Part shown: positions 33,572 through 37,620 of the stretch, one piece after another
How positions within the stretch are numbered: the first letter of the stretch is position 1
How the letters are laid out: the number at the start of each line of letters is the position of its first letter
NCBI GenBank assembly: GCA_943789005.1
Contig: CALSSL010000001.1
Coordinates: forward strand, 576,511 to 640,510
Reading direction: 5' to 3'
From: an uncultured SAR86 cluster bacterium
GTDB taxonomy: Bacteria > Pseudomonadota > Gammaproteobacteria > Magnimaribacterales > D2472
Length of the DNA: 64,000 nt
The notes under the pieces: model-generated
The model's database searches: none
Told to the model about the DNA's origin: nothing
What the model saw: only the letters and a program-made list of their open reading frames with translations
Position numbers and translations under genes: made by a program

Positions 33572-33998
33572 ATGGATAATATGCTCATGGATAAGTTTAT
33601 TTTATTTCTAATTGAGCATTATTTTTATTCTGTGCCGCTTTTGGTAGTTTCTGATTCTGTTAATTAGGTCAAACGCAATTAAGGGAGGAAAAAAAATTAC
33701 TCCACAGGACCTAATAAACTTAACCAATCAAGACGCAGCACAATTAATAGATTTAAGGTCTTCAAATGAATTTAACGACGGCCATATCACAGGCTCTATT
33801 AATATTCCCTATACGGATTTAGAAGATAGAATTCATGAGATCAAAAAACAGGAAGATAAGTCATTGGTTTTAATATGCGACACTGGCAGTCAATCAGCAA
33901 ATGCTGGTGAAGTTTTAAATAAATCTGGCTTCGAAAACACAGTTATCTTGTCGGGGGGCATTGGAGCATGGAGACTGGATAATCTTCCTCTAGTTTAG
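33572..33998 (+). pseudogene. Membrane-anchored rhodanese (YibN-like), split by a single-base frameshift
   Basis: Not in the ORF track. From ATG 33572 one frame gives an N-terminal membrane segment (FILFLIEHYFYSVPLLVV) and stops at 33667. The next frame, open from 33648 to TAG 33998, continues with LILLIRSNAIKGG, LIDLRSSNEFNDGHITGSIN and the rhodanese active-site loop CDTGSQS. Removing one T from the TTT at 33648-33650 joins them into about 142 aa, the length and layout of E. coli YibN. It is either a real lesion or a sequence error. The 3' end overlaps ntrC by 9 bases. Confidence 0.82.
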
Positions 33999-35372
33999 AT
34001 TCCAAGTTCTTTTATTTTCTTTCGCTAGAGTATTTCTTCCTAGACCTAGTAAAATTGCAGCTTCATTTTTTTTACCATTAGTTTTTTCTAAAGCAGCATT
34101 AATTATAATTTTTTCAATTTTTGGATTAACAATATCAAGTAGGTCGTTTTCAATGGTGGTAGCTACGTTATTAACCCAACTATTAAAACCATCTTCCCAA
34201 GATGAGCTAGGCGCTTCTACCATCTGATTATCCTTAATTTCTTCCGGTAGATCTTCTACCTTAACATTCTGAGTTGGAGTCATTAATGCCAACCAATAGC
34301 ATATATTTTCTAGCTGCCTAACATTGCCTGGCCAATCATATCTTGTTATTACATCCATAACTTCTTTTGATAAGACCCTAAGCTCTTCTCCAAGAGAATC
34401 AGAATGTTTTTTTAAAAAGTACTTAGTTAAGATATCAATATCTTCTTTGCGCTCTCTAAGTGCAGGAACATTAATTTTAATAACATTTAATCTATAGAAT
34501 AAGTCTTCTCTAAAAGATTTTTGTGATACTAAATTATTAAGATTCTGGTGGGTTGCAGCAATTATTCTTACATCAACTTTAATTGGCTTATCTCCTCCAA
34601 CTCTATAAAATTCTTTATTTGATAAAACTCTTAGGAGTCTTGTTTGAGAATCAAGAGGCATATCACCAATCTCATCTAGAAAAAGAGTGCCGCCATTTGC
34701 TTGTTCAAACCTCCCAATTCTTTGATCAACAGCTCCGGTAAAAGCTCCCTTTTCATGACCAAAAAGCTCAGATTCAACTAACTCTTTTGGAATATCAGCC
34801 ATATTGAGGGCAATGAAAGGCATATCATATCTTGGGCTATTCTTATGAAGTGATTTTGCAATAAGCTCTTTACCAGTTCCAGATTCACCTTGGACTAAGA
34901 CAGTTGCTGTTGTGGTTGAAAGCTTGCCAATGGCCCTAAAAACAGTTTGCATCGAAGCAGATTCACCAATGATATCTGTTTTAGCTTTAGCTTTTAAACC
35001 CTTTGTTTTTGGCTTTTCCTCTAAAGCCCTATTAATTATTTGTATAGCATCATCTAAATCAAAAGGTTTTGGGATATATTCAAAAGCACCACCACCGTAT
35101 GAATCAATTGCTGCCTGCATATCTGTGAATGCAGTCATAACTATAACTGGAATATTCTCATGATTATCATTAATGTGTTTTAGTAAATCATATCCAAGCA
35201 TGCCTGGCATTTGCACATCCGTTAGAATGAGATCGGGTAAATCATTTTTAAGTTCATTTACAACATCATCTCCTGAAGAAAAAGTTTGAACACTAAAGCC
35301 TGCCGAGGAAAGACTTTCTTCAAGGATAATTCTTATAGCGCTATCATCGTCAGCAACCCAAACTTTATGCAC
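33990..35372 (-). CDS. ntrC: Nitrogen regulator NtrC (sigma-54 activator), last residues frameshifted
   Basis: Response regulator that activates sigma-54 promoters under nitrogen limitation. The receiver domain has the phosphorylated aspartate in LILTDVQMPG. The AAA+ domain has Walker A GESGTGKE, the sigma-54 contact GAFTGA and Walker B GTLFLDEIGDM. A Fis-type HTH closes it. The annotated end NTLAKENKRTWNLN departs from the family. Removing one A near 34016-34022 restores NTLAKKIKELGI and a stop at 33995. The shift touches the end of the DNA-recognition helix. It overlaps ntrB by 8 bases. Confidence 0.93.
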   Translation of the reverse strand: MHKVWVADDDSAIRIILEESLSSAGFSVQTFSSGDDVVNELKNDLPDLILTDVQMPGMLGYDLLKHINDNHENIPVIVMTAFTDMQAAIDSYGGGAFEYIPKPFDLDDAIQIINRALEEKPKTKGLKAKAKTDIIGESASMQTVFRAIGKLSTTTATVLVQGESGTGKELIAKSLHKNSPRYDMPFIALNMADIPKELVESELFGHEKGAFTGAVDQRIGRFEQANGGTLFLDEIGDMPLDSQTRLLRVLSNKEFYRVGGDKPIKVDVRIIAATHQNLNNLVSQKSFREDLFYRLNVIKINVPALRERKEDIDILTKYFLKKHSDSLGEELRVLSKEVMDVITRYDWPGNVRQLENICYWLALMTPTQNVKVEDLPEEIKDNQMVEAPSSSWEDGFNSWVNNVATTIENDLLDIVNPKIEKIIINAALEKTNGKKNEAAILLGLGRNTLAKENKRTWNLN

Positions 35373-36450
35373 TTTTCATGTCCTCATTTTTTGATTCTAG
35401 ATTTATAGGGATTAATATTGAGAAGGTTGTTCCTTTTGAAGCGCTATTGAAAGAAATAGCGCCACCATGAATTCTGATAATGTCTTGTGAGATAGATAAG
35501 CCCAAGCCAGAGCCATCTTCTTTAGAAGATACCATTGGAAAAAATACTTGTTCTTGAATGTCTTGAGGAATGCCTGGACCGTTGTCGATGATGCTTACTT
35601 CGCACAATGTTGAGTGCATCACTCCATTAATTGGCTGACCATAAGCAACTCTAGATTTAATTATTATTGTTGGTTCTTCTGTTGAAAGAAGCGCTTGTTG
35701 AGCATTTTTAAAAATATTTAAGACAGCTTGTATGAACAAATCTTCGTCACCATAAATCTCAGGAATGCTTGGATCATAGTCACGATTAATTTTAAGATTT
35801 TTATATTCATCTGTTTGCGACAAAGCAAAGACTTTTTCAAGAGCAGAGTGGATGTTAAAAGCTTCAAGTTTTGGTCTTTTAGGGGGTGTAAGTATTTTTG
35901 TTACAATAGAATTTAATCTTTCAGTTTCATTAATAATGATATCTAAAAACTTTTTAGAAAAATCATCATCAGCCTTTGATAACAATATTTGAGCGCTGCC
36001 TTTTATTCCTGAAAGAGGATTCTTCACCTCGTGAGCTAATGTCCTTGCTAAATTCGCTGCAATTTTTTGTGTAGAAAATATTTTTGAAGAGTCAATAATT
36101 TTATTCAAGTTGTCTACACATAAAATTTCAATTATCAAAATATTATCTGTATCAGACCAGCTTGCAGTCAGATCTACAATCCTATGGCTCTCATTGGGTT
36201 TAGCTAGCTTGAAATTTCTTTTTGTTATTGTGTTGCCTGAATTAGCACAATCCTGAAGAAGTTCTAGGAGCTCATTATTTGTCTCAGATGTAAATTGATT
36301 TTTAATATTTGAGTCATCAGAAGAATAAATCCAGCCATTTGAAACCGCTGAGTCATTAAGCCAGAGAATTTTGAACTCATCATCTAAAACAACAATCTCT
36401 GAGGCTATTTGGTTTAATAAAAGATTGTTAAATTTTTCAGAATTAGTCAT
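35365..36450 (-). CDS. glnL: Nitrogen regulation sensor kinase NtrB
   Basis: Partner kinase of NtrC. A PAS domain fills about residues 8-120. The H-box is LAHEVKNPLSGIKGSAQIL, and the ATP-binding N, G1 and G2 boxes are seen in NIFKNAQQAL, IIDNGPGIP and DGSGLGLSIS. I use ATG 36450 (MTNSEKFNN) rather than the TTG at 36474, whose extra residues would be encoded by the hairpin. The ribosome site AAGGAG lies inside that hairpin, 12 bases before the ATG. No PII gene is in the window. Confidence 0.93.
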   Translation of the reverse strand: MTNSEKFNNLLLNQIASEIVVLDDEFKILWLNDSAVSNGWIYSSDDSNIKNQFTSETNNELLELLQDCANSGNTITKRNFKLAKPNESHRIVDLTASWSDTDNILIIEILCVDNLNKIIDSSKIFSTQKIAANLARTLAHEVKNPLSGIKGSAQILLSKADDDFSKKFLDIIINETERLNSIVTKILTPPKRPKLEAFNIHSALEKVFALSQTDEYKNLKINRDYDPSIPEIYGDEDLFIQAVLNIFKNAQQALLSTEEPTIIIKSRVAYGQPINGVMHSTLCEVSIIDNGPGIPQDIQEQVFFPMVSSKEDGSGLGLSISQDIIRIHGGAISFNSASKGTTFSILIPINLESKNEDMKSA

Positions 36451-36457
36451 TAAGAAG

Positions 36458-36483
36458 ATTGGCTCCTTTTGCAAGGAGCCAAT
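36458..36483 (-). terminator. Perfect hairpin between glnII and ntrB (terminator/attenuator)
   Basis: Perfect 11-bp stem ATTGGCTCCTT/AAGGAGCCAAT with a 4-base loop, reading in the direction of glnII-ntrB transcription. The following bases (CTTCTTAATG) are only moderately T-rich, so termination may be partial. Its 3' arm contains AAGGAG, the only ribosome site for ntrB, so the folded mRNA should also hide ntrB from ribosomes. Confidence 0.75.
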
Positions 36484-36496
36484 ATTATCGAGGGTG

Positions 36497-37477
36497 TTAT
36501 TTTGTTAATGTTCCCACTATATGTGCCAGGATTTTATAAGGATCAGCATTAGAAGCAGGTCTTCTATCTTCTAAGTAGCCATTCCAGTTATGCTCTACTG
36601 TATAAACAGGAATTCTAATACTGGCCCCTCTATCACTTACTCCGTATGAGAATTTATCAATACTTTGTGTTTCGTGAAGCCCAGTAAGTCTCATATCATT
36701 ATCAGAACCGTATAAAGATATACCTTCCTGATGAACTTCTCCTAACTTTTCACACATTGATGTAAATAATTCTTCAGTTCCACTAGATCTCATAGCTTCA
36801 TTAGAAAAGTTAGTATGCATACCGGAACCATTCCAATCACCAGTTTTGGGTTTAGGATGAATGTTAACACCTACACCAAATTCTTCTGCAATCTTATATA
36901 GTAGATATCTTGATACCCAAAGGTCATCAGCTGCTTTAATTCCTTTGCCTAGGCATTGATATTCCCATTGACCTAGTGCAACCTCAGCATTTGTACCGGT
37001 TAAGGTAATGCCAAGATCTAAACATGCTTGAAGGTGAGCATCTGAAATTTCTCTTCCAACGACATTCCCAGCACCAACAGCACAATAGTAGGGTCCTTGA
37101 GGTCCAGGCTCACCATTTTCCCATCCCAAAGGATCTCCTGTTTCAGGATCAGTAAAAAAGAATTCTTGCTCAAACCCAAACCACCATTCATCAGTTACGA
37201 CAGCTTCAGCTGCAGCTCTAAAATTAGTTGGATGAACAGAATGATCTGCTGCTTGGACTTGAGTCATTACTAAATCATGCCCATGTGGGTTTGCATATGT
37301 TTGTACAGGTATTAATAAGCAATCTGAACTACTGCCTTCAGCTTGACCTGTGGATGAGCCATCAAAAGACCAATCCGGAGGTGTGTCTGCATCAGTTGCT
37401 TTAACCTTGCTTCGCATTGAAGACTCAGGCTTATTTCCATCAAGCCATATGTATTCATAAGTTTTATATTCTGCCAT
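36497..37477 (-). CDS. glnII: Glutamine synthetase type II
   Basis: ATP-dependent ligation of ammonia to glutamate. The 326-aa protein belongs to the short GSII (eukaryote/rhizobium) class, not the 470-aa GSI class. Signs are WSFDGSSTGQAEG, FGFEQEFFF with active-site glutamates, NAEVALGQWEYQ, NGSGMHTNFS and YLEDRRPASNADPY. It lacks the GSI adenylylation region, so control is probably transcriptional through the sigma-54 promoter and NtrC sites upstream. Ribosome site AGGAG, 6 bases before ATG. It precedes ntrB-ntrC. Confidence 0.95.
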   Translation of the reverse strand: MAEYKTYEYIWLDGNKPESSMRSKVKATDADTPPDWSFDGSSTGQAEGSSSDCLLIPVQTYANPHGHDLVMTQVQAADHSVHPTNFRAAAEAVVTDEWWFGFEQEFFFTDPETGDPLGWENGEPGPQGPYYCAVGAGNVVGREISDAHLQACLDLGITLTGTNAEVALGQWEYQCLGKGIKAADDLWVSRYLLYKIAEEFGVGVNIHPKPKTGDWNGSGMHTNFSNEAMRSSGTEELFTSMCEKLGEVHQEGISLYGSDNDMRLTGLHETQSIDKFSYGVSDRGASIRIPVYTVEHNWNGYLEDRRPASNADPYKILAHIVGTLTK

Positions 37478-37518
37478 TATATCTCCTAATGTAATTTTTA
37501 ATTAGCACTATTAGTAAA

Positions 37519-37533
37519 GCAATTTACATGCCA
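37519..37533 (-). promoter_or_regulatory. Sigma-54 promoter of glnII
   Basis: On the minus strand TGGCATGTAAATTGC, followed by T. This matches the sigma-54 consensus TGGCACG-N4-TTGC with one mismatch and has the obligatory GG-N10-GC spacing. The expected transcription start near 37507 leaves a leader of about 30 bases with the AGGAG ribosome site. The activator NtrC is encoded two genes downstream. Confidence 0.85.
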
Positions 37534-37550
37534 TTTATATTTAGGATAAA

Positions 37551-37619
37551 TGCACCGTATTTGTACATAATATGCGTTATTTTAGTGCGAATCTATAAAA
37601 ATTGCATTAATTTAATGCA
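37551..37619. promoter_or_regulatory. Three NtrC-like enhancer sites upstream of glnII
   Basis: Three 17-base sites resembling the NtrC consensus TGCAC-N7-GTGCA: TGCACCGTATTTGTACA (37551-37567), TGCGTTATTTTAGTGCG (37573-37589) and the perfect palindrome TGCATTAATTTAATGCA (37603-37619). Centres lie about 52, 74 and 104 bases upstream of the predicted start, with spacings of 22 and 30 bases, close to whole helical turns. The farthest site abuts the stop codon of the yqiA-like gene. Confidence 0.7.
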
Positions 37620-37620
37620 A

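Follow-up and report, generated by a model that had tools for sequence, protein, structure and literature searches.

The window analyzed here, a 64-kb stretch of SAR86 DNA, carries a gene for a type II glutamine synthetase (glnII) whose upstream region was proposed in a first-pass annotation, made from the sequence alone, to hold a sigma-54 promoter with three phased NtrC-type sites. This raises the question of whether the region is a genuine promoter of that kind, and how far such control extends among the relatives of the source organism. The genome to which the window belongs (G000) comprises 1.27 Mb in four contigs, with 33% G+C and 91% completeness. Its closest named GlnII loci are mostly from the SAR86 cluster, the top match being the single-cell genome AAA168-P09 (99% identity).

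Gene order at the glnII locus

The minus strand carries glnII, ntrB, and ntrC arranged head to tail in that order. The first (36497..37477, minus strand) encodes a protein of 326 aa identified by NCBIfam and Pfam matches: its best NCBIfam match is NF041605 GlnII at 357 bits, below the model cut-off of 500 bits, and PF00120 and PF03951 match above their cut-offs. This protein is the single PF00120 match in the assembly and thus the only glutamine synthetase detected there. The sequence AGGAG at 37483..37487 (minus strand) is its probable ribosome binding site. The ntrB gene (35365..36474, minus strand) encodes a nitrogen-sensing histidine kinase with HisKA and HATPase_c domains (NF008293, PRK11073, 250.5 bits, above the cut-off of 240), and its true start is likely MTNSEK.. 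at about 36450 rather than the mechanical TTG start. The ntrC gene (33990..35372, minus strand) specifies a response regulator that, by TIGR01818 (636.8 bits, above the cut-off of 558.6), domain matches, and alignment, is composed of a receiver, an AAA+ domain with GAFTGA intact, and a Fis-type helix-turn-helix (HTH). NtrB and NtrC had been placed directly downstream of glnII in the first-pass annotation, and this assignment holds, given that both are encoded on the same strand and both exceed their NCBIfam cut-offs.

At the end of ntrC (33990-34040, minus strand), the window reads GCGAAAGAAAATAAAAGAACTT, which contains one base more than the near-identical relative L081 (GCGAAAAAGATAAAAGAACTT). 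With the extra base, the final ~8 residues, which fall within the recognition helix, read KENKRTWNLN instead of KKIKELGI and are unlike those of the relatives checked. The difference is due to a sequencing error or else to a recent lesion of this helix.

A sigma-54 promoter element and three NtrC-type sites

The -24/-12 element, TGGCATGTAAATTGC, was located by sequence at 37519..37533 on the minus strand and is kept in relatives. It has the form GG-N10-GC, and direct reading of the minus strand confirmed the earlier claim that it departs from the consensus TGGCACG-N4-TTGC by one mismatch (extended reading at 37533-37518, minus strand, TGGCATGTAAATTGCT). The element is the sole exact match to TGGCAYG-N4-TTGC (pattern TGGCAYGNNNNTTGC) in the 64-kb window, and when the 200-bp upstream region was dinucleotide-shuffled 20,000 times, the stricter form TGGCAYN5TTGCW arose in 0.03% of the shuffles. 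Note that a loose scan of the window permitting two or fewer mismatches yielded 20 matches, which is the chance level, and therefore strict sites alone were used. Transcription is predicted from the sequence to start at about 37508, about 12 nt past the GC of the -12 element.

Three 17-mers on the minus strand lie upstream of this element, and each was scored by its matches out of 10 to TGCAC-N7-GTGCA. The proximal site, TGTACAAATACGGTGCA (37551..37567, center 37559), scores 9/10 and is positioned at about -51 from the predicted start; the middle site, CGCACTAAAATAACGCA (37573..37589, center 37581), is weak, scoring 7/10, at about -73; and the distal site, TGCATTAAATTAATGCA (37603..37619, center 37611), scores 8/10 at about -103. 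These positions are within 1 bp of the values of about 52, 74, and 104 originally given, and the centers fall 82, 104, and 134 bp from the glnII ATG. A perfect 19-bp palindrome (37602-37620) has the distal 17-mer as its core, and the middle site reads AGCACTAAAATAGTGCA in the near-identical relative L005, where it scores 9/10. Three such sites were present in 0.1% of shuffles of the 200-bp upstream region, and the exact 30/22 spacing was present in 0 of 20,000.

The remaining cascade and a putative regulon

The first-pass annotation had recommended searching the same genome for rpoN and glnB/glnK. Full-length rpoN is present as a 424-aa ORF between lptB and mgtE (PF04552, 8e-44), and two PII proteins and GlnD are also encoded. 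A scan of the whole assembly with the -24/-12 model, also recommended, returned 10 strict sites where 3.95 ± 1.5 were expected. Some of the ten sit within ORFs and are probably chance matches. Those upstream of genes include the sites before glnII, the porin-glnK-amt operon, a TonB receptor gene, and a second amt gene, which also has an NtrC-type site (9/10). Judged by these promoter matches, the gene set is nitrogen-centered, as in an NtrC regulon. The description of the circuit as self-contained overstates the case: because rpoN, the PII genes, and the gene for GlnD reside elsewhere and similar promoters precede amt and glnK, the glnII locus constitutes one node of a small regulon.

Conservation across SAR86 relatives

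Relatives comprised 80 named SAR86-type glnII loci and an 81-genome panel; L numbers denote loci and G numbers genomes. The glnII protein tree fails to recover families cleanly, and therefore lineage statements follow the family (f) and genus (g) labels supplied with the genomes. The -24/-12 element is present in 39 of the 80 named loci, and each of these 39 also encodes NtrB together with an NtrC that has the AAA+ domain and G(A/S)FTGA. Across g1-g5 and g7-g10, the array keeps a spacing of 30 and 22 bp (29 and 22 in g8) while the sites diverge in sequence, with single sites falling below threshold in some panel genomes of these genera. The distance from the proximal site to the -24 element in relatives is either 25/26 bp or 16 bp, values that are one helical turn apart, and this shift is what a constraint on the face of the DNA predicts. 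The recurrence of 30 and 22 bp across the SAR86 family and these -24 distances show that the spacing is not due to chance, and the sites count as helically phased, as first proposed. Conservation of the element, on which the first-pass annotation had staked its reading, was found where rpoN and NtrC are kept, the exceptions being most g5 members and f2, and lineages lacking rpoN also lack -24/-12 at glnII. Neither of the two outcomes named beforehand as refuting, an absence of rpoN or a lack of conservation of the element, was observed, and the first-pass interpretation is supported.

Some loci or matches fall outside this pattern. Neither a riboswitch nor ntrBC was found within 3 kb of glnII at L129, L147, L148, L151, and L156, four of which carry the label Pelagibacteraceae or a similar one, and these five were left unclassified. 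Matches to PF00158 at E values of 1e-4 to 1e-8 were rejected as NtrC, as they represent other AAA proteins, mostly open frames of ~750 aa. L107 (3978-6976) has the gene order glnII-glnA-ntrB-ntrC, which suggests insertion of glnII in front of an ancestral glnA-ntrBC operon and makes this arrangement a possible intermediate. Because its ntrC runs off the end of the locus, L107 was excluded as a case of NtrC without AAA+.

Relatives with altered promoters and regulators

Retention of sigma-54 control in a streamlined genome, which had been flagged in advance as noteworthy, is true of the window's genome, but in sister SAR86 lineages the system is gone or has been replaced. Members of g5 possess rpoN and NtrBC and keep the array, yet most have lost -24/-12 at glnII, and the family can thus do without sigma-54 at this gene. 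The element is kept as AGGCATCACAATTGC in L136, a locus similar to g5 in its SFTGA loop. Among f2 genomes, NtrC-type sites are spaced 19/42 in g14 and g18 (41 in g18), and the motif TGnTAnnAT and the center of the proximal site are exactly 25 bp apart. Of 11 f2 genomes, 10 have rpoN (the exception is 82% complete). Family f2 thus shows the extended -10 arrangement alongside rpoN, so that promoter change can precede loss of the sigma factor.

Family f3 (g12, g15, g16, and g19) gave no rpoN match in nine genomes of 90-96% completeness, and rpoN is reduced to a C-terminal piece in g12 (G050 and G077). This piece, found in G050 (L218, 7356-7592) and likewise in G077, is a 78-aa RpoN remnant with the HTH and RpoN box located between lptB and mgtE; it is too short for a sigma factor and is kept open in two genomes. 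NtrBC are retained in g12, g15, and g19. The f3-type array lies at 0/22/44. In all 15 upstream regions of the f3 type that do not belong to g16 (six panel and nine named, some of which may be the same genome in both collections), TGnTAnnAT and the center of the proximal site are separated by exactly 16 bp. This pattern points to replacement of -24/-12 in f3 by a fixed extended -10 element.

The regulator is altered as well. In g15, the sigma-54 contact loop has changed from GAFTGA to GAFKGA in all four of the panel genomes that were read, as well as in five of the named loci. In g16, where no rpoN was found, ntrC is an open frame of 256-258 aa whose receiver and Fis HTH match Pfam and whose AAA+ domain is absent, an alignment placing the clean deletion between GKL and the post-lid linker. 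This form adjoins ntrB in G056 and four named loci (L117 and G065 in this set are one genome), and its best solved-structure matches include an E. coli-type NtrC receiver (1e-37) and an NtrC DNA-binding domain (4e-15).

Glutamine riboswitches in lineages without the cascade

No rpoN, full NtrC, or PII was detected in 15 genomes of g6 (f1) and g13 (equivalent to f4). RF01739 aptamers reside directly upstream of glnII in all 12 g6/g13 genomes whose upstream region was read (G063 and G075 were scored separately from the other 10), with scores of 62-71 bits relative to the Rfam gathering cut-off of 35. The riboswitches before glnII are tandem in g6 and G078, and mgtE directly follows lptB in G029 (g6). 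Likewise, seven of seven named loci with an aptamer core at glnII have no ntrBC within 3 kb. No RF01739 match was detected in the window's own genome. Given that g6 and g13 are in different families and that the family mates of g6 keep the circuit, the labels imply at least two riboswitch replacements or transfers.

The glnA RNAs have been described from cyanobacteria and marine metagenomes in association with nitrogen genes (PMC2864571). A 2018 review regarded the glutamine riboswitch as restricted to cyanobacteria, with copies linked to glutamine synthetase known only in uncultured environmental sequences, and the known gifB representative is an ON switch (PMC6316151). The g6/g13 aptamers resemble glnA RNA in scoring well above the cut-off upstream of glnII but differ from the class as reviewed because they precede this gene in genomes that lack rpoN, ntrBC, and PII.

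Glutamine riboswitches were also observed at other genes. RF01739 is upstream of gltB-type glutamate synthase (GATase_2) in L219, L232, and L235 (g13) and in L241 (g16), and glutamine riboswitches precede a proteasome-like gene in L231 and CP_ATPgrasp-type genes in L233 and L238, these loci belonging to g1, g5, and g2. Tandem copies in L242, L245, and L247 (~1530-1790) are followed by a conserved ORF of ~54 aa that ends in FFPYYL and has no Pfam match. These genomes bear NtrC and are close to the window, and by analogy the ORF could conceivably encode a small glutamine synthetase-regulating protein like cyanobacterial IF17. In G051 (f4; C1:168957-170276), tandem riboswitches are located upstream of a different glutamine synthetase-like ORF (474-aa frame), and GlnII gave no match in this genome, which suggests that the riboswitch stayed while the enzyme changed.

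Discussion

We consider it very probable that the region upstream of glnII is a genuine NtrC-activated sigma-54 promoter that drives a glnII-ntrB-ntrC operon and works like enterobacterial glnAp2; the window holds an ordinary NtrC/sigma-54 circuit. It shares with the enteric glnA-glnL-glnG (ntrBC) system a sigma-54 promoter, multiple NtrC enhancer sites, PII/GlnD, and a glutamine synthetase gene followed by ntrB and ntrC. Neighboring NtrC sites at glnAp2 are spaced by 22 bp, as are the proximal and middle sites in the window. In contrast to the enteric system, the enzyme is GlnII rather than GlnA, and three sites are arranged at 30/22. The promoter element, the site array with its conserved spacing, the protein set, and the further promoters before amt and glnK are features read from the DNA itself, whereas NtrC binding, sigma-54 initiation, the nitrogen signal, and autoregulation are expected by analogy with characterized families. 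Under nitrogen limitation, GlnD would uridylylate PII, NtrB would then phosphorylate NtrC, and NtrC-P would oligomerize on the three helically phased sites. The AAA+ ring, by means of its GAFTGA loop, would open the closed sigma-54 polymerase complex, and the amounts of both glutamine synthetase and the NtrB/NtrC regulators themselves would rise.

The altered relatives bring to mind an arrangement wherein -24/-12 is a chance match or relic and glnII is transcribed by sigma-70 RNA polymerase with NtrC acting at the same sites. Indeed, f2 and f3 relatives with NtrC-type sites have no -24/-12 but show TGnTAnnAT at a constant spacing, and most of g5 has lost the element despite keeping rpoN. Nevertheless, we judge this arrangement very unlikely for the window, where no TGnTAnnAT was seen at the place corresponding to the f2/f3 element, where rpoN is intact in the genome, and whose relatives in f1 keep -24/-12 phase-locked even though the sequence of the spacer varies. 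Slightly more improbable still is that the palindromes are bound by another regulator with a TGCA-type half-site instead of the NtrC encoded downstream. Although a TGCA palindrome is a simple sequence in a genome rich in A+T, the sites are NtrC-type TGCAC-N7-GTGCA 17-mers that reach 10/10 in several relatives, their spacing is kept where ntrBC are kept, and g6 and g13, which have no ntrBC, lack them except for single chance-level matches.

The presence or absence of each component across relatives is observed, and from this distribution we infer the order of events, the mechanisms, and the function of each stage. The pattern is probably best understood as a graded decommissioning of the sigma-54/NtrC switch in SAR86 that involves rpoN loss, rewiring of NtrC to sigma-70 extended -10 promoters, GAFKGA decay, AAA+ deletion, and two riboswitch swaps. 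In the simplest reading, loss of rpoN would have freed NtrC from sigma-54, and extended -10 elements, each at a set spacing from the former enhancer sites, would have taken over as promoters. The sigma-54 contact loop would then have decayed, as in g15, and the AAA+ motor, left without a task, would finally have been deleted to give the receiver-HTH regulator that may be the endpoint in g16. In g6 (f1) and g13 (f4), a cis-acting RNA sensor would instead have taken the place of the protein cascade.

The NtrC proteins of Rhodobacter capsulatus and Caulobacter have no GAFTGA and act at sigma-70 promoters, and a role for ATP binding has been described for NtrC lacking this loop (PMC10274813). The f3 relatives are similar in keeping an NtrC with an altered sigma-54 contact loop (GAFKGA, g15). 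However, those species have lost only the loop, whereas the entire AAA+ domain is missing from g16 NtrC and full-length rpoN from f3. No account of this SAR86 series was found in open literature that combined SAR86 with sigma-54, rpoN, ntrC/glnB, or riboswitch.

For the window itself, the finding means that an ocean bacterium with a genome of about 1.3 Mb retains the complete NtrC/sigma-54 response to nitrogen. The comparison across relatives would matter more, because one order presents the switch intact, with its promoter lost, with its sigma factor lost, with its loop mutated, with its motor deleted, or with a riboswitch in its place. The g6 and g13 genomes offer owners for some of the glutamine synthetase-linked glutamine riboswitches that had been known solely from marine sequences of uncultured origin. 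On the basis of this series, synthetic promoters and proteins could also be used to test the passage from sigma-54 activator to sigma-70 regulator, or its replacement by RNA.
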